Both the position numbers and the translations under genes were made by a program. From positions 1,240,001-1,304,000 of the forward strand of contig NZ_VCNM01000002.1 of the NCBI RefSeq assembly GCF_007671725.1: a stretch of 64,000 bases of DNA, given 5' to 3'. Under the pieces are notes generated by a model that saw only the letters and a list, made by a program, of their open reading frames with translations, was not told the origin of the DNA and did not search any database. Positions 3,219-10,675 of this stretch are shown here, piece after piece. Positions within the stretch are counted from its first letter, which is position 1. Every line of letters starts with the position of its first letter. The stretch is from Halorubrum depositum. Lineage in GTDB: Archaea; Halobacteriota; Halobacteria; Halobacteriales; Haloferacaceae.

Positions 3219-3272
3219 ATGAGTCGCCGACGGAATCGAGTACACGAGAGCAACGGTGGGGTAGACCCATGA
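3219..3272 (+). CDS. Possible 17-residue leader ORF overlapping lctP start
   Basis: An ATG-initiated frame encodes MSRRRNRVHESNGGVDP and stops at a TGA that shares ATGA with the lctP start codon. It is basic and hydrophilic. A second mini-ORF (3173-3217, MNVMSLASYVDDNL) sits just before it, right after the TATA box, and may be upstream of the transcription start. These may allow translational coupling of lctP to its leader, or be chance open frames; no homology can be judged at this length. Confidence 0.3.
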   Translation: MSRRRNRVHESNGGVDP

Positions 3273-5011
3273 CGACGGGAATCGACGTCGCGATCGCCGC
3301 GATACCGCTGCTTCTCGCGGGTACCCTGCTGATCGGACTGCTCTGGCCGGCGACGCGCGCGATGCCGATCGCGTGGGTCGCCGCGCTCGCGGTCGGGTAC
3401 TTCGCGTGGAACATGCCGGTGAACTGGTTGGCGGCGGCGTCGGCGGCAGGCTTTATGACCGCCTTCGAGATCCTCTGGATCGTCTTCGGCGCGCTCGTCC
3501 TGCTGTACACGCTGATGGAAGCGGGCGCCTTCGACCGGATCAATCGAGGGTTCGCGACGGTCAGCGACGACCGCCGCGTCCAGATCGTCCTGATCGCCTT
3601 CTTCATGGCGACGTTCATCGAGGGCGCCGCCGGCTTCGGGACGCCGGCCGCGGTCGTCGCACCGCTGCTCCTCGGACTTGGTTTCCCGGCGCTCGCGGCC
3701 GTCGTCGCGGGCATCATCGGCCACATCATCGCCGTCACGTACGGCGCGGTGGGGACGCCGATCGTGGTCGGGATCCAGAGTCCGATGGAGAGCGTCGAGT
3801 TCACCCGCACCGCGATCCAGGACGGCGGGATGACCGTCCAGGAGTTCTCCGTCAACGTGGCGGCGTGGGCGGCGACGTATCACGCCTTGGTCGGGTTCGT
3901 GATGCCGCTGTTCGCGGTCGGAATGGTCGTCTACTTCTTCGGTGACCCGGAGGACCGGTCGCTGAAGCCGGCCTGGGAGGTCGCGCCGCTCTGTATCGCG
4001 TCGGGGATCGCCTTCGCGGTCCCGTACTGGCTCTCGGCGTGGTTCCTCACGGCCGAGTTCCCGTCGCTCATCGGCTCGATGGTCGGTGGAACCGTCATCC
4101 TGAGCATCCTGCGTGCGGGGTACCTCCTGCCGGACGACGAGTGGGAGTTCCCCGAGCGTGAGCGGTGGGCCGATCACTGGGTCGGCTCGATCGAGCCGGG
4201 CCAGTCCAACGGCGCGAACGGCGGCTCGCCCGAGGCCGAGGCGGCCGACCTGAGCGGCGGCGAGGACATGTCGCTGTTCAAGGCGTGGTCGCCGTACGTC
4301 CTGCTCGTGATCCTGCTGGTCGTGACGCGGGCGATCGACCCGATCTCGAACTTCATCAACCAGGACATCTTCGTCCTCAGTTGGGGCGGGATCCTCGGCA
4401 CCGACCTCAGCGGAGCCGTCGCGTGGATGAACGTACCGGGCTTCTGGCTGCTCGTGAGCGCCGTGCTCGCGATCCCGATCTTCAGCATGTCCGGCGAGGA
4501 GGTCGGTGACGCCTGGAAGGAGGCCGCCCGGAAGATCGTCTCGCCGTTCATCGCGCTGGTGTTCGTCATCGCGATGGTGCAGGTGATGCTCCAGTCCGGC
4601 GCGCATCCCGGCGCGCCCGAGGTCGGCAGCATGATCGTCCTGCTCGCGCAGACGACCGCGGATATCCTCGGCCCCGCCTACCCCGCCTTCGCGTCGCTCA
4701 TCGGCGCGCTGGGCGCGGCGATGGCCGGGTCGAACACCGTCTCGAACATCACGTTCGGCGCGTTCCAGTTCGAGGCGGCGACGCAGCTCGGGCTCCCGCG
4801 GACGATCATCGTCGGCGCGCAGGCCGTCGGCGGCGCAATCGGGAACCTCGTCGCGATTCACAACCTCGTCGCCGCGCTGGCGACTGTCGGCCTCCTCGGA
4901 CAGGAGGGGCGGGTGATGCGGCTGAACATGATCCCGCTGCTGTACTACGCGACCGGCGTCGGTCTGCTGTGTCTGCTGTTCAGCTACGTGCTGTTCCCCG
5001 GCGTGTTCTGA
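3269..5011 (+). CDS. lctP: L-lactate permease (LctP family)
   Basis: 580-residue integral membrane protein, about the usual LctP length, with a dozen or more hydrophobic helices from residue 4 to the C-terminus (ending LLFSYVLFPGVF). Family motifs include EGAAGFGTPAAVVAPLL in the first half, VTYGAVGTPI, and SLIGALGAAMAGSNTVSNI in the second half. A hydrophilic cytoplasmic-type loop (SNGANGGSPEAEAADLSGG) lies near the middle. It should import lactate with a cation. It faces the D-lactate dehydrogenase gene across a 553-base gap, so transport and oxidation of lactate are encoded side by side. T-rich terminator follows at 5036-5046. Confidence 0.92.
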   Translation: MTTGIDVAIAAIPLLLAGTLLIGLLWPATRAMPIAWVAALAVGYFAWNMPVNWLAAASAAGFMTAFEILWIVFGALVLLYTLMEAGAFDRINRGFATVSDDRRVQIVLIAFFMATFIEGAAGFGTPAAVVAPLLLGLGFPALAAVVAGIIGHIIAVTYGAVGTPIVVGIQSPMESVEFTRTAIQDGGMTVQEFSVNVAAWAATYHALVGFVMPLFAVGMVVYFFGDPEDRSLKPAWEVAPLCIASGIAFAVPYWLSAWFLTAEFPSLIGSMVGGTVILSILRAGYLLPDDEWEFPERERWADHWVGSIEPGQSNGANGGSPEAEAADLSGGEDMSLFKAWSPYVLLVILLVVTRAIDPISNFINQDIFVLSWGGILGTDLSGAVAWMNVPGFWLLVSAVLAIPIFSMSGEEVGDAWKEAARKIVSPFIALVFVIAMVQVMLQSGAHPGAPEVGSMIVLLAQTTADILGPAYPAFASLIGALGAAMAGSNTVSNITFGAFQFEAATQLGLPRTIIVGAQAVGGAIGNLVAIHNLVAALATVGLLGQEGRVMRLNMIPLLYYATGVGLLCLLFSYVLFPGVF

Positions 5012-5070: not shown

Positions 5071-5435
5071 AACGCTCCCGAAGCCCCAGCCGCGAGGCGG
5101 GCGCACGCTCGCTGTCGTTCGAGACGCCGGAGGCGTCTCGTGACGACGAGAGAGCAAAGCTCTCTCCAACCACGCTCCTCGGTCACTCACTTCGTTCGTT
5201 CCCTGCGGTGCTTACGTCGTCATCAGAACGCTCGGCGTTCTGATTGGCTCACGAGAGCTCCACTCTCGTGAACGCCTGCGCCCGCCTCGCGGATGCCCCC
5301 TTGAGTCCCGCCCCGCACCGCAACCGCACCTCACGCCTCCCCAGCCTCGTCGCTCGCTACGCTCGCTCCTCCCTCGCGCGCGCACCTCGCGCCCTGCGGG
5401 CGCTCGGCGGCACGCGCCGACCGCGTCGTTTTTTA
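5071..5435. repeat. Structured dispersed repeat, copy 1 (with nested hairpins)
   Basis: Fills the convergent gap between lctP and the dehydrogenase gene. It shares blocks with copy 2 at 9315-9573 (AAGCCCCAG, the TCACTTCGTTCG block, GGTGCTTA, TTGAGTCC, CCCCGCACCGC, CTCCCCAGCCTCGTCG, CGCGCACCTCG). Two 16-base arms, 5090-5105 and 5277-5292, are perfect reverse complements and differ from copy 2 only by paired changes. Inside and beyond are perfect small hairpins: 5120-5140 (9-bp stem, GGA loop), 5148-5166 (8 bp, AAA), 5222-5244 (10 bp, TCG), 5249-5271 (9 bp, 5-base loop), 5389-5403 (6 bp, TGC). No credible protein is encoded. I do not know a published name for it. Confidence 0.85.
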
Positions 5436-5510
5436 TAACTGACCCTCGCGGTCGCTCACTCTTTTTAAATACCGTATTGACGATGCGCGAGATGTGAAAG
5501 ACGGGGGCCG

Positions 5511-5564: not shown

Positions 5565-8500
5565 TCAGTCGTCGGCGGGCGACGGGCTCGTCGCGTCGGC
5601 GGCGCCCGCGTCGGCGACGGCGTCGGGCGCGGGCCCGGTCACGGCGTCAGCGACCTTCTCGATCGGGTGCGGCGGGTTCTCCGCGTCCGCGTCGCGGTCG
5701 CCCAGCTGCGAGCGGCAGGAGGCGCCCGGCGCGGTCACCGTCTCGCCGTCGCTCTCGTCGACCTGGTCGAAGAGGATCCGCCCGATCGCCTTCGAGATGT
5801 CGTAGTGCTCCGACTCGTAGCCGAACGAGCCCGCCATCCCGCAACAGGAGGAGTCGAGCGGGTCCACGTCGTAGCCGGCCCGGCGGAGCACGCCGACCGC
5901 GTGGTGGTCCTTGTTCGTCGCCTTCTGGTTGCAGTGGCCGTGGTAGGTGAGCGACTCGGCGGGCGCGTCGAACGCCAACTGCTCGTCGACGCGGCCGGCG
6001 TCGAGGTACTCCAGGACGCCGTAGGCGGCCGCGGAGACGGCCTCGACGTCGTCGCCGTCGAGCAGGTCGAGGTACTCGTCCTGGAACATCACCGCGTCCG
6101 ACGGCTCGACGAAGACGACCGACTGCCCGTCGCGGACGCGGGGCGCGAGCCGCTCGACGTTGGTCTCGGCGCGCTCGCGGGCGTCGTCGAGGAACCCGGT
6201 GGAGAACGCCGCCCGACCCGAGGGGGCGAGGTCGTCCGGCACCTCGACGCGGACGCCGGCCGCCTCCAGCACCTCGACGGCGGCCTTCCCGGCGGCCGGG
6301 TAGCTGTAGTTGGTGTACGTGTCGGGGAACAGCACGACCGTGTCGGCCGCCTCCTCGGGGGCGACCGTCGACCCGCCGCGCGAGTCGAACCACTCCTCGA
6401 AGCTCTCGGAGCGGAACGTCGGCAGCTCCCGGTCCGGGGCGATCCCCGCGACCGCGTCCATCACCTTCCGGGCGCCGGGGATCTTCGACGCCGCGTTCGA
6501 CACCGGCGCGAGCGTGCTCCCGAGCGCCGAGAAGCGGTCGATGTCGCGGAAGATCCGCTCGCGGAGGCCAGCCCCCTCCTTCTCGTGGTGCTCGTGTTTC
6601 ACCTCGGCCTTGAGCTTCGCGAGGTCGACCCCCGTGGGACAGTCGCTCTTACAGCCCTTACAGCCGACGCAGAGCCCGAGCACCTCCTCCTGGAATCTGT
6701 CGGAGTGGATCTCGTCCTCGTCGAGCTCCCCGCTGATGGCCGCCCGGAGCATGTTCGCGCGGCCGCGAGTCGCCTGGATCTCCTCCTCGGAGGCGCGGTA
6801 GGTCGGACACATCACGCCGGAGTCGGTCTCGCGGCAGGTGCCGCAGCCGTTACACAGCTCGACGAGGTGCGAGAAGCCGCCCTCGTCCGTGAAGTCCAGC
6901 TCGGTCTGCGGCTCGATCGACTGGTACTCCGGCCCGTACCGGAGGTTCTCCCGCATGTCCGTGTCGGCGGCGGTGTCGGGGTAGCCGCGCTCGGCGGCGG
7001 TGTCGCCGTCGACGTAGACGACCTTCCCGGGGTTCATCCGCCACTCGGGGTCGAACGTCGACTTGAGCTCCTGGAACGCGCTCCAGAGGTCTTCGCCGTA
7101 CATCTTCGGGTTGAACTCGGTGCGCGCGAGCCCGTCGCCGTGCTCGCCCGAGAAGGCGCCGTGGTGCTCTAAGACGAGATCGGTGACGTCCTCGGAGATG
7201 GAGTGCATCTTCTCGACGCCCTCCTCCTCCTTCAGCGAGAGGATGGGCCGGATGTGGAGGGTGCCGGACCCGGCGTGCGCGAAGTACGCCGCCGAGGTGT
7301 CGTGGTCCGTGAGGACGTCCTCGAACTGTCCGACGTACTCCGCGAGCTCCTCGGGCGGCACCGTCGCGTCCTCGATGAACGGATACGGCTTCGGGTCGCC
7401 CTTCATGCCCATCAGAAGCGGGATGGCCGCCTTTCGGAGCTTCCAGATGTCGGCCTGGTCCTCGGGCGTGTACGCCTCTAACACGTCGAAGGCGTCGCCC
7501 TCGTCGACGAAGTACGCGTTCGTGTCGGCGATGGCGTCCTCGAAGTCGCCGACGAGCTCGGAGTCCCACTCTAACATGAGCGCCGCGGCCGCGCGGTCCG
7601 GGATCGGCTCGGCGTACTGCGCGAACTCCTGTGAGCCGGCGGCGAGCGAGAACACCTCGTCGTCCATCAGCTCGACCGCGCTCACCGGGAACTCCAGCGC
7701 CTCGGGCACCGCCTTCATCGCGTCGTTCAGCGAGTCGAACATGTACAGCGCGAGCGCCGTCTCCTCGGGGCGGGTGACGAGCGACACCTCGGCCTCGACG
7801 ATCGTGCCGAGCGTCCCCTCGGCGCCGACGAACAGCTTCGAGAGGTTGATAACCTCCTCGCCGTCGTCGTTCTCGTAGATCACCTTATGCAGGTTGTACC
7901 CGGAGACGGAGCGCTTGAGGTTCGGGTACTTCTCGTCGATCTCGGCCTCGTTCTCCGCGACGAGTTCGCGGGTCGTCTCGTACAGCGCGGCCTCCTGATC
8001 GTCTTTTCCGACGATCTCCTCGTACTCCGGGGAGTCGAGGACGACCTCGCGGGTCTCGATGAGCGACCCGTCCGCGAGCACGACTTTCAGCCGCTCCGTG
8101 TACGCGTCGGTGATCCCGTAGCGCACCGAGTGCGCGCCCGTGGAGTTGTTGCCGATGCCGCCGACGACCGTCGCGCGCGCCGAGGAGGCCGGGTCGGGGG
8201 CGAACTTCAGCCCGTCCTCGGCCAGCCGGTCGTCGAGGTGGTCCTGGACGACGCCGGGCTGGACCACCGCCCGGCGGTCGTCGGGCCGGACGTCCACGAT
8301 CTCGTCCATATACTTCGAGAAGTCGAGCACGACGCAGCCTGGGCCGACGGTCTGACCGCCGAGCGAGGAACCGGCGCCCCGCGGGATGACGGGGACCTCG
8401 TGGTCGGCCGCGACCCGCATCGTCGCCTGCACGTCGTCGATCGAGCGCGGCGTCACGACGCCGGCCGGGCGCGCCTGGTAGATGCTGCCGTCGGTCGCGT

Positions 8501-8666
8501 ACAGCACCTGCGCGTACTCGTCGAACTGGACCTCGCCGGCGACGCGCTCGCGGAGGTCCTCCGCGAGCGCCCGATAGGCGGGTACGTCCGGACGGTCGTG
8601 GCCGAGCGCGGCCGACGACGTGTCCAGGTCGGGTGTGTCAGCTCCCCACGCGGGCTCACTTGCCAT
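5565..8666 (-). CDS. dld: FAD-linked oxidase/Fe-S protein, probable D-lactate dehydrogenase
   Basis: 1033-residue fusion. The N-terminal ~270 residues form a PCMH-type FAD domain (TPRSIDDVQATMRVAA, VIPRGAGSSLGGQTVGPG, GGIGNNSTGAHSVRYG); the FAD-oxidase C-domain follows to about residue 530. Around residues 600-680 are two ferredoxin-like 4Fe-4S motifs (CNGCGTCRETDSGVMCP, CVGCKGCKSDCP), then a CCG-type domain with SSCCGMAGSFGYESEHY near 940. This GlcD+GlcF-like architecture fits membrane-associated D-lactate (or glycolate) oxidation feeding electrons to quinone. Neighbouring lctP favours lactate. The start is supported by a TATA-like AGGATTTATT at 8691-8700, 25-28 bases upstream. Glycolate or another 2-hydroxy acid remains possible. 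Confidence 0.85.
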   Translation of the reverse strand: MASEPAWGADTPDLDTSSAALGHDRPDVPAYRALAEDLRERVAGEVQFDEYAQVLYATDGSIYQARPAGVVTPRSIDDVQATMRVAADHEVPVIPRGAGSSLGGQTVGPGCVVLDFSKYMDEIVDVRPDDRRAVVQPGVVQDHLDDRLAEDGLKFAPDPASSARATVVGGIGNNSTGAHSVRYGITDAYTERLKVVLADGSLIETREVVLDSPEYEEIVGKDDQEAALYETTRELVAENEAEIDEKYPNLKRSVSGYNLHKVIYENDDGEEVINLSKLFVGAEGTLGTIVEAEVSLVTRPEETALALYMFDSLNDAMKAVPEALEFPVSAVELMDDEVFSLAAGSQEFAQYAEPIPDRAAAALMLEWDSELVGDFEDAIADTNAYFVDEGDAFDVLEAYTPEDQADIWKLRKAAIPLLMGMKGDPKPYPFIEDATVPPEELAEYVGQFEDVLTDHDTSAAYFAHAGSGTLHIRPILSLKEEEGVEKMHSISEDVTDLVLEHHGAFSGEHGDGLARTEFNPKMYGEDLWSAFQELKSTFDPEWRMNPGKVVYVDGDTAAERGYPDTAADTDMRENLRYGPEYQSIEPQTELDFTDEGGFSHLVELCNGCGTCRETDSGVMCPTYRASEEEIQATRGRANMLRAAISGELDEDEIHSDRFQEEVLGLCVGCKGCKSDCPTGVDLAKLKAEVKHEHHEKEGAGLRERIFRDIDRFSALGSTLAPVSNAASKIPGARKVMDAVAGIAPDRELPTFRSESFEEWFDSRGGSTVAPEEAADTVVLFPDTYTNYSYPAAGKAAVEVLEAAGVRVEVPDDLAPSGRAAFSTGFLDDARERAETNVERLAPRVRDGQSVVFVEPSDAVMFQDEYLDLLDGDDVEAVSAAAYGVLEYLDAGRVDEQLAFDAPAESLTYHGHCNQKATNKDHHAVGVLRRAGYDVDPLDSSCCGMAGSFGYESEHYDISKAIGRILFDQVDESDGETVTAPGASCRSQLGDRDADAENPPHPIEKVADAVTGPAPDAVADAGAADATSPSPADD

Positions 8667-8858: not shown

Positions 8859-9227
8859 ATGGAGATACTCCACACGTGTCTGAACGTGGCCGACGCCGAC
8901 CGCACCGCCGACTGGTACGTCGAACAGCTCGGGTTCGAGCGCTCCTGGGAGTTCACGACCGCCGACGGCGACACGCGCAACGTGTACGTCTCGGACGACG
9001 CCGGCGTCGAGTTCCAGCTGTCCGACACAGACGGCGAGGAGCCGAGCGACGACGGCGACCGGTACGACCACGTCGCCGTCGGCGTCGACGACGTCGACGC
9101 GACGTTCGAGGCGATCGACCACCACGGCGTCGTGAAGGAGCCGGGCGACCAGCCCGAGGCCGGCGCGCGCACCGCGTTCGTGAAAGACCCCGACGGACAC
9201 GCGGTCGAGCTGATCGAGCCGTTATAA
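8859..9227 (+). CDS. VOC-superfamily protein (glyoxalase-like)
   Basis: 122 residues, two beta-alpha-beta-beta-beta modules of the vicinal oxygen chelate fold. Metal-ligand positions resemble glyoxalase I: H6 in ILHTCLNV, E49 in the GVEFQLS strand, H67 in YDHVAVGVDD, and the terminal E117 in GHAVELIEPL. This set (H/E/H/E) suits a lactoylglutathione lyase-like metalloenzyme, and D-lactate would be its product, which is suggestive next to a D-lactate dehydrogenase. However haloarchaea generally lack glutathione, so the thiol cofactor or substrate would differ; the assignment stays at family level. Confidence 0.8.
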   Translation: MEILHTCLNVADADRTADWYVEQLGFERSWEFTTADGDTRNVYVSDDAGVEFQLSDTDGEEPSDDGDRYDHVAVGVDDVDATFEAIDHHGVVKEPGDQPEAGARTAFVKDPDGHAVELIEPL

Positions 9228-9314: not shown

Positions 9315-9573
9315 AACGCCGCCAAAGCCCCAGTCGCGAGGTCGGCGCACGCTCGTTGCGCTCCTCGGTCGCTCACTTCGTTCGCTCCCTGTGGTGCTTA
9401 CCGTTGCCTGCGCCGACCTCGCGACTGCCCCTTTGAGTCCTCCCCGCACCGCACGGCACCGCGCCTCACACCTCCCCAGCCTCGTCGGTCGCCGAAGGCG
9501 ACCGACTCCCTCACGCGCGCACCTCGTGGCCGCCACGGGCGGCCACTCGGAGGCGCGCGCCACCGCATCGTTT
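9315..9573. repeat. Structured dispersed repeat, copy 2
   Basis: Lies in the convergent gap between the VOC gene and the CitE-type lyase gene, in the same orientation as copy 1. Arms 9333-9349 and 9409-9425 are 17-base perfect reverse complements. Two further perfect hairpins are 9485-9505 (9-bp stem, GAA loop) and 9526-9546 (9-bp stem, ACG loop); the latter sits at the same place as the GCGCCC/GGGCGC hairpin of copy 1 but with a different stem sequence. The two inner hairpin pairs of copy 1 are absent here, so the long stem encloses only 59 bases against 171 in copy 1. Confidence 0.85.
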
Positions 9574-9736: not shown

Positions 9737-10648
9737 TTACAGGATGCCGGCGGCCTCGGCGGTCTCGACGATGTCCTGGGCCATCTTGTTGGTCGCCTCG
9801 TCGACCATCTGGCCGTCGACGCTCACGGCGCCTTTGCCCTCCTCCATCGCCTCGGCGTAGGCGTCGACGATGCGCTTGGCGCGCTCGGCGGTCTCCGGGT
9901 CCGGCGCGAACACTTCGTTGCCGATCTCGATCTGCGAGGGGTGGATCGCCCACTTGCCGTCGCAGCCGATCATGTTGGCGTTCTCGGCGGACTCGCGGAA
10001 CCCGTCGGCGTCCTCGATGTCGGCGTACGGGCCGTCGAGACACGGCAGGCCGGCCGACTTCGCCGCGGCGTTACACTCGGAGAGCGCGTGGTGCCAGTAG
10101 TGGCCCGGGTACTCCGGGAACTGACCGATGTCGAGCCCGGGTGTTCCCATCGCCGCGGAGTAGTCGCCCGGCCCGAAGATGATCGACGAGAGCCGGTCGG
10201 AGGCGTGCGCGATCTCGTGGACGTTGTGCATCCCCTCGCCGTCCTCGATCTGCGGTTCGAGGCCGATGCCGCCGACCTCCAGCCCGTTGTTCTCCTCGAC
10301 CTGCGCGAGCAGGTTCTCGACGGTGTGGATGTCGCTGGGGGACTTGACCTTCGGAACGATGATGTCGTCGATGTGCTCGCCCGCCTCGCCGACGACCGTG
10401 ATCAGGTCGTCGTACCACCACTTGGTGTCGATGCCGTTCATGCGGAAGCTGAGGACCTTGTCGCTCCAGTCCTCCTCTTTGGCCGCCTTGATGAGCGGCG
10501 CGCGCGCGTCCGGCTTGGCGTTCGGCGCCACGGAGTCCTCCAAGTCGAGGAACACCTCGTCGGCGTCGCTGTCGGCCGCTGAGTGCATCATTTTCTCGTC
10601 GCTCGCGGGCGTTGCAAGCTGCGTCCGGCGAAGAGTGACGTCCGTCAT
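9737..10648 (-). CDS. HpcH/HpaI (CitE-like) aldolase/lyase, probable malyl-CoA/methylmalyl-CoA lyase
   Basis: 303 residues. Family signatures of CitE-like TIM-barrel lyases are present: EVFLDLEDSVAPNAK (metal-binding Glu/Asp region), VLSFRMNGIDTKWWYDD, IIVPKVKSPSD, GLEPQIEDGEG and IIFGPGDYSAAMG, followed by KWAIHPSQIEI. These proteins cleave or form (S)-malyl-CoA or beta-methylmalyl-CoA; in haloarchaea such a lyase serves the methylaspartate cycle, but the pathway in this organism cannot be read here. Start: the frame is open to a TTG at 10660, but the ATG at 10648 encodes the typical MTDVTLRRTQ start and lies 28-37 bases after a TATA-like CTTTATTTCC (10676-10685). Confidence 0.82.
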   Translation of the reverse strand: MTDVTLRRTQLATPASDEKMMHSAADSDADEVFLDLEDSVAPNAKPDARAPLIKAAKEEDWSDKVLSFRMNGIDTKWWYDDLITVVGEAGEHIDDIIVPKVKSPSDIHTVENLLAQVEENNGLEVGGIGLEPQIEDGEGMHNVHEIAHASDRLSSIIFGPGDYSAAMGTPGLDIGQFPEYPGHYWHHALSECNAAAKSAGLPCLDGPYADIEDADGFRESAENANMIGCDGKWAIHPSQIEIGNEVFAPDPETAERAKRIVDAYAEAMEEGKGAVSVDGQMVDEATNKMAQDIVETAEAAGIL

Positions 10649-10675
10649 ATAGCGGCTCAATCACGCTCGCCCACG

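Follow-up and report, generated by a model that had tools for sequence, protein, structure and literature searches.

Folded intergenic repeats of an apparently undescribed haloarchaeal family covary along one strand and exchange their hairpins between copies

Results

Two elements of the window belong to a dispersed family

The two palindromic elements located in the window, the 64-kb stretch of Halorubrum depositum DNA under study, belong to a family of folded, non-coding intergenic repeats that appears to be undescribed and is found between genes, often in dozens of copies, in most of the haloarchaeal genomes examined. Our analysis has established the dispersal of this family, its homology throughout the class Halobacteria, the covariation and strand specificity of its fold, the exchange of arms between copies, the presence or absence of copies at orthologous sites and the occurrence of composites of inverted hairpins. 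In our view, the element is a dispersed repeat of class Halobacteria that ends in hairpins, is non-autonomous, resembles MITEs and PATEs and acts through one folded single strand; we consider the chances of this interpretation to be even.

The initial annotation had described perfectly complementary arms in both copies, which a letter-by-letter comparison has reproduced (Table 1), and three differences over 16 shared arm positions (C to T, C to T and G to C), each of which is indeed compensated on the opposite arm. Selection could not have been shown from two copies alone. The flanking blocks that had been named proved to be the conserved skeleton of a dispersed family, and the many copies with uncompensated arm changes that would have spoken against a paired structure were looked for and not found. 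In addition to the arms, the element extends to hairpins 2 and 3. Both window copies are located between convergent genes.

Table 1. Features of the two window copies and their neighbouring genes.
Feature	Position	Strand	Basis or remark
Copy 1, hairpin-1 domain	5075..5316	minus (structured strand)	covariance model R1, 46.7 bits, E 3.1e-7
Copy 1, hairpin-1 arm (CCGCGAGGCGGGCGCA)	5090..5105		perfect reverse complement of 5277-5292
Copy 1, hairpin-1 opposite arm	5277..5292		pairs with 5090-5105, letter-by-letter check
Copy 1, loop insert, twin-hairpin module A (GAGACGCC/GGCGTCTC + GAGAGAGC/GCTCTCTC)	about 5115..5175		recurs in copies L031 and L056
Copy 1, loop insert, twin-hairpin module B (TCAGAACGC/GCGTTCTGA + CACGAGAG/CTCTCGTG)	about 5220..5275		recurs in L057 and orthologous locus L214; variant in another genus, L369
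Copy 1, conserved linker (CCCCCTTGAGTCCC ... CCTCCCCAGCCTCG)	5296..5350	minus	skeleton kept among copies and in other genera
Copy 1, hairpin 3 (GCGCGCGC...GGCACGCGCC)	5373..5419		by-eye comparison with other copies of the same genome
Copy 1, right flank, TTTATAA-type	5429..5438		TTTATAA enriched 5-8 bp past right end of many copies
Copy 2, hairpin-1 domain	9319..9447	minus (structured strand)	R1 127.1 bits on minus vs 23.3 bits on plus
Copy 2, hairpin-1 arm (GTCGCGAGGTCGGCGCA)	9333..9349		exact reverse complement of 9409-9425
Copy 2, hairpin-1 opposite arm	9409..9425		pairs with 9333-9349
Copy 2, apical motif GA-GC-GA-AC-GAA-GT-GA-GC-GA (tandem G.A and GNA loop)	9369..9387	minus	motif frame exact in 112/225 stems
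Copy 2, conserved CCTCCCCAGCCTCG linker	9471..9484	minus	kept among copies and in other genera
Copy 2, hairpin 2 (GTCGGTCGCC GAA GGCGACCGAC)	9484..9506		sequence; hairpin-2 alleles vary between copies
Copy 2, hairpin 3	9510..9561		by-eye comparison with other copies of the same genome
Left neighbour of copy 1, L-lactate permease	3269..5011	plus, reads towards element	Pfam PF02652
Right neighbour of copy 1, FAD-linked oxidase / Fe-S protein	5565..8666	minus, convergent	Pfam PF02913, PF01565
Left neighbour of copy 2, glyoxalase-family protein	8859..9227	plus	Pfam PF00903
Right neighbour of copy 2, HpcH/HpaI aldolase	9737..10660	minus, convergent	Pfam PF03328

The H. depositum genome (3.18 Mb) contains about 12-18 copies per 400 kb, with motif clustering giving 18 elements in the 400-kb stretch inspected and the model giving 16 matches, of which 12 are strong. 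Allowing up to three mismatches, the motif CCCCTTTGAGTCCNNCCCCGCACCGC is present in 3-91 copies in all 23 Halorubrum genomes of a first sample, in none of 16 genomes from other families of the order, and also in named Halorubrum records and one Halobellus record. The resulting view of a family restricted to Halorubrum proved wrong, as the strict motif misses other genera that are detected by a covariance model (R1) built from 59 Halorubrum copies. With E-values that are rough following a short calibration, R1 matches 146 of 194 class Halobacteria genomes at E≤0.001, covering 55 of 65 genera, and finds 3-91 copies per genome in 30 chosen genomes outside Halorubrum. In a sample of the phylum, all 19 matching genomes belong to class Halobacteria and none lies outside. 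Similar sequences are found on plasmids of Natrinema, Halorussus, Haloarcula, Halobaculum and others, there are almost no copies on Halorubrum plasmids and none in the phage records searched. The initial impression that the element has no named family is borne out by Rfam, where neither gathering nor loose thresholds returned a family (best chance match at E 0.91), and by a search of the literature for its conserved strings, which gave only three matches, all unrelated. A tRNA scan of the window found none.

Organization of the element

On the plus strand, the element proceeds from a leader via CAAAGCCCC, the left arm, the loop, the right arm and GCCCCTTTGAGTCC to a C-rich linker containing CCTCCCCAGCCTCG, followed by hairpin 2, hairpin 3 and the end. 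On the structured strand, which is the minus strand in the window, the rod begins with CAAAG/CTTTG, a GGG/GGG internal loop and an exchangeable stem of 12-18 bp, continues with short covarying helices split by conserved purine loops and terminates in (GA-NN)2-GNA-(NN-GA)2, with hairpins 2 and 3 located on its 5' side. In some copies the leader is a 57-bp unit repeated 2-5 times. At locus L202, a leader unit with CAAAGCCCCAGCCGCTCGC and a 57-bp period places five left anchors upstream of one copy, which are possibly terminal-only remnants of older insertions.

The loop of copy 2 is uninterrupted whereas that of copy 1 is broken by two twin-hairpin modules, which accounts for the greater length of the latter. 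Such modules of about 55-60 bp recur in the loops of different copies (L031, L056, L057, L197, L214 and L369), a third type reads AGCGAG(hp)CTCTGGCAGCCGGCG(hp)CGCCGGCGAC, and all look like small mobile repeats nested in palindromes.

While the stretch from H. depositum contains the single form only, 400 kb of a genome from one other family (G179) hold 23 elements, of which 12 are composites consisting of divergent hairpin-1 pairs around a centre of 158-329 bp with further hairpins and the conserved linker. The outer ends of these composites are inverted and of the type GGAAGCCCCC/GGGGGCTTCC; they thus have inverted hairpin ends, whereas the single form of Halorubrum is without terminal inverted repeats. 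Two inverted hairpin-1 copies around a shared centre, as in G179, were also noticed on a Halobaculum plasmid (NZ_CP134951.1, L297).

In many Halorubrum copies, TTTATAA is found 30-33 bp before CACCTCC and 5-8 bp past the right end, with a density in the flanks of 3.6-3.7/kb, whereas intergenic DNA free of elements has 0.07/kb outside convergent gaps and 0 within them; around copies of other genera, TTTATAA or TATA-like flanks were not seen. A role of these flanks as promoters of the structured strand was rejected, as part of hairpin 3 would fall upstream of the start and the flanks are missing in other genera. Left of copy 2, TTATAA (9222-9227) contains the upstream gene's stop codon, and the same is seen at one locus of the two-species comparison described below, so that it looks as if the element or its flank starts at the stop codon.

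Covariation assigns the fold to one strand

That a paired structure is maintained, as had been proposed from the two copies, is evident, well above what chance would give, in an alignment of 59 Halorubrum copies, where 97.7% of the cells in 31 pairs are standard-paired compared to 81.6% after shuffling of the 3' side and at most 37% after sliding the partners by 1-3 columns. Double changes occur in 25 of the 31 pairs, with a score of 0.474 vs 0.171 for shuffled and ≤0.056 for slid partners. A class-wide alignment of 44 copies, from 30 genomes of 22 genera and two Halobaculum plasmids, was fitted to the model and therefore leans towards its structure; here 96.5% of cells are paired and 27 of 32 pairs covary (0.622 vs 0.175 shuffled and ≤0.062 slid), so that pair covariation exceeds both controls in either alignment.

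The loop of the minus strand reads (GA-NN)2-GNA-(NN-GA)2 in an exact frame in 112 of 225 distinct stems. Among these 112, complementarity is seen at the inner NN pairs of 102 stems (mean of 37 and maximum of 54 after shuffling) and at the outer ones of 100 (mean of 44 and maximum of 57). At the places of the tandem G.A pairs, the plus strand would carry T.C mismatches. Non-standard pairs on the structured strand show an excess of G.U over A.C, with 49 vs 10 in Halorubrum and about 32 vs 11 class-wide, where column pair 13-218, possibly not a true pair, was left out. These counts refer to cells and not to independent events, and a sign test by columns gives p 0.02 for Halorubrum and p 0.14 class-wide. 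In the outer arms alone, the G.U bias is mainly found at one position, and hairpins 2 and 3 have no such bias (2 vs 2). Because the tandem G.A pairs, the GNA loop and the tolerance for G.U are confined to one strand, we assign the folded form to one single strand. Of the two options that had been offered, RNA or cruciform DNA, a single strand (RNA or ssDNA) is retained and the cruciform is disfavoured. Judged by its sequence, the long rod would be formed by one strand only, the minus strand in the window, either as DNA or as an RNA copy. GNA loops with G-C closing pairs are very stable as DNA mini-hairpins (PMC4686876).

Hairpins are exchanged as units

Between two species that are about 95% identical, orthologous elements keep their skeleton and swap hairpins wholesale. 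The arms of copy 2 share 58% identity over nine orthologs, compared to 62% among unrelated copies in the H. depositum genome, and the equivalent values for its skeleton are 80% and 90%. Since arms are no closer in orthologs than in paralogs and skeletons are closer within the genome, we read the pattern as concerted evolution of the family. In about eight copies the loop is inverted between intact arms. As hairpins are exchanged as units, the compensated differences between copies thus come largely from the exchange of whole palindromes. The proposal that compensation reflects selection consequently stands for the preservation of the structure, but stepwise mutation does not account for many of the differences. 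Palindromes that swap their arms as units yield compensatory changes between copies even without selection, and covariation in dispersed repeats thus needs ortholog and strand controls. A function of the folded strand is still needed to account for the class-wide pattern, the loops on one strand and the excess of G.U.

Orthologous sites were found to be filled, empty, deleted in the stem or occupied by an inverted partial copy. A clean pair of empty and filled sites with a target duplication was not obtained, with TTTATAA present on both sides in Halorubrum only, and exact target sites could not be mapped between orthologous gaps because the intergenic DNA is too diverged.

Discussion

Origin and function of the repeat

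The main alternative to a mobile repeat is a family of structured host RNAs, where the structured strand would be transcribed, either on its own or within the 3' regions of adjacent genes, and the rod would be bound by a protein that might, for instance, end or protect transcripts in convergent gaps. This proposal, which we consider rather unlikely, accommodates the single-strand covariation with its G.U excess and the conservation of unpaired blocks in at least 22 genera. It would also account for the enrichment of Halorubrum copies in convergent gaps, which, with genes called by a purpose-written codon-model script, amounts to 11/17 vs 28/118 in one count and 25/64 vs 24/133 in a second (p 0.0025). 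However, this enrichment is not clear in G179, the sense orientation relative to codirectional genes is inconsistent in Halorubrum (16 vs 12, no bias), copies are missing from orthologous gaps and the TATA-like sites do not accompany the copies of other genera. Alternatively, template switching and gene conversion might suffice to keep the arms matched in passive DNA palindromes whose folded strand has no function. The many C to G flips in either direction (20) among compensated differences, the equal number of compensated and uncompensated single-step neighbours, the inversion of loops through the arms and the lack of G.U bias in hairpins 2 and 3 speak for such a process. We nevertheless find it improbable, as it fails to predict the one-strand architecture of tandem G.A pairs and GNA loop, the covarying 2-bp steps between conserved loops, the excess of G.U and the conservation of the skeleton throughout the class.

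Still less credible is a classical PATE, which would descend from IS200/IS605 elements by deletion and rely on a Y1 transposase for its movement, although the anatomy is the same as in the PATEs of Haloquadratum walsbyi, with near-terminal palindromes, heterogeneous copies, small hairpin repeats inside palindromes and terminal-only remnants (PMC3119063). Membership fails because a link to IS605 ends is lacking: at 21 loci, 20 of Y1 and one of TnpB, neither a copy nor element ends were found. The TnpB locus, the single match in the H. depositum genome, has no model match, unlike TnpB/IS1341-associated RNA. A Y1 gene is absent from H. depositum and ten others among 52 Halorubrum genomes, each of which has matches to the repeat, and the hairpins of composites reside on opposite strands, unlike IS605 ends. 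In the mobile, hairpin-ended repeat that we favour, a trans-acting protein would recognize the folded single strand, be it excised or replicating ssDNA or a transcript. The element may have spread as a MITE- or PATE-like passenger, and recombination between copies would keep each palindrome matched while altering its sequence. Against this reading we count that a transposase tied to the element, a clean empty/filled pair and phage copies were all not found, that Halorubrum plasmids carry next to no copies, and that the strong class-wide conservation of unpaired sequence suggests a function beyond self-spread.

Relationship to known systems

The closest known systems are the PATEs and SMRs of Haloquadratum walsbyi (PMC3119063). 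These PATEs are short, lack a transposase, are heterogeneous, have palindromes near their ends, are attacked by small palindromic repeats and shrink via repeat-mediated deletion (PMC3119063). The present repeat shares the near-terminal palindromes and the lack of a transposase gene, but differs in its class-wide covarying one-strand rod and the oppositely oriented hairpins of its composites. The twin-hairpin modules resemble SMR-A as described, the latter being longer with about 110 bp (PMC3119063). With haloarchaeal MITEs the repeat has in common that it is non-coding, a few hundred bp long, present in dozens of copies and, in the composites of G179, inverted at its ends, although here each inverted end is a structured hairpin with variable arms and no matching transposon or target duplication was found. 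Bacterial REP/BIME palindromes, which are associated with RAYT enzymes, are dispersed, intergenic and of high copy number, and imperfections in the palindrome set the active strand. The haloarchaeal repeat is likewise a dispersed intergenic high-copy palindrome, but it is much longer, found in class Halobacteria only and present in genomes without any Y1-family gene. GNA-loop DNA mini-hairpins such as GCGAAGC were described as isolated oligonucleotides (PMC4686876); the structured strand has an apical loop of this type, here at the tip of a genomic repeat. Two further candidates were set aside, the intergenic promoter repeats of halovirus HF2, whose quoted motifs differ from the element, and a phage-borne Halorubrum PATE (PMC10544981), as no phage record matches the element in a collection that may not include that phage.

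There is a real chance that the repeat constitutes a new structured family. It is conceivable, at less than even probability, that it represents a class-wide family of structured single strands, as RNA or as ssDNA, in which a rod with tandem G.A pairs ends in a GNA tip, possibly served by its own dedicated protein and reaching up to about 100 copies per genome. Such a family would fall outside those known, whether as a mobile element of a new type or as a new RNA encoded in many copies. Most sampled haloarchaeal genomes carry this folded repeat, yet it has neither an Rfam entry nor a description in the literature searched. It offers a strand-specific structure for testing the recognition of RNA or ssDNA in archaea, and the covariance model can annotate what sometimes now appears as stray hypothetical proteins.

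Related motifs were also noticed elsewhere. At L306, L308, L309, L311, L316 and L324, loci from several other haloarchaeal genomes, a tandem-GA hairpin, GAGCGAACGAAGTGAGCGA, directly follows an apparent tRNA 3' end (..GGTTCAAATCCGGTCCCGCGCA), and the opposite side frequently carries an inverted piece of it. The sequence GAGCGARCGAAGYGAGCGA is found in 128 of 194 class Halobacteria genomes, above a reversed control and also outside this element, and may be a general haloarchaeal mini-hairpin.
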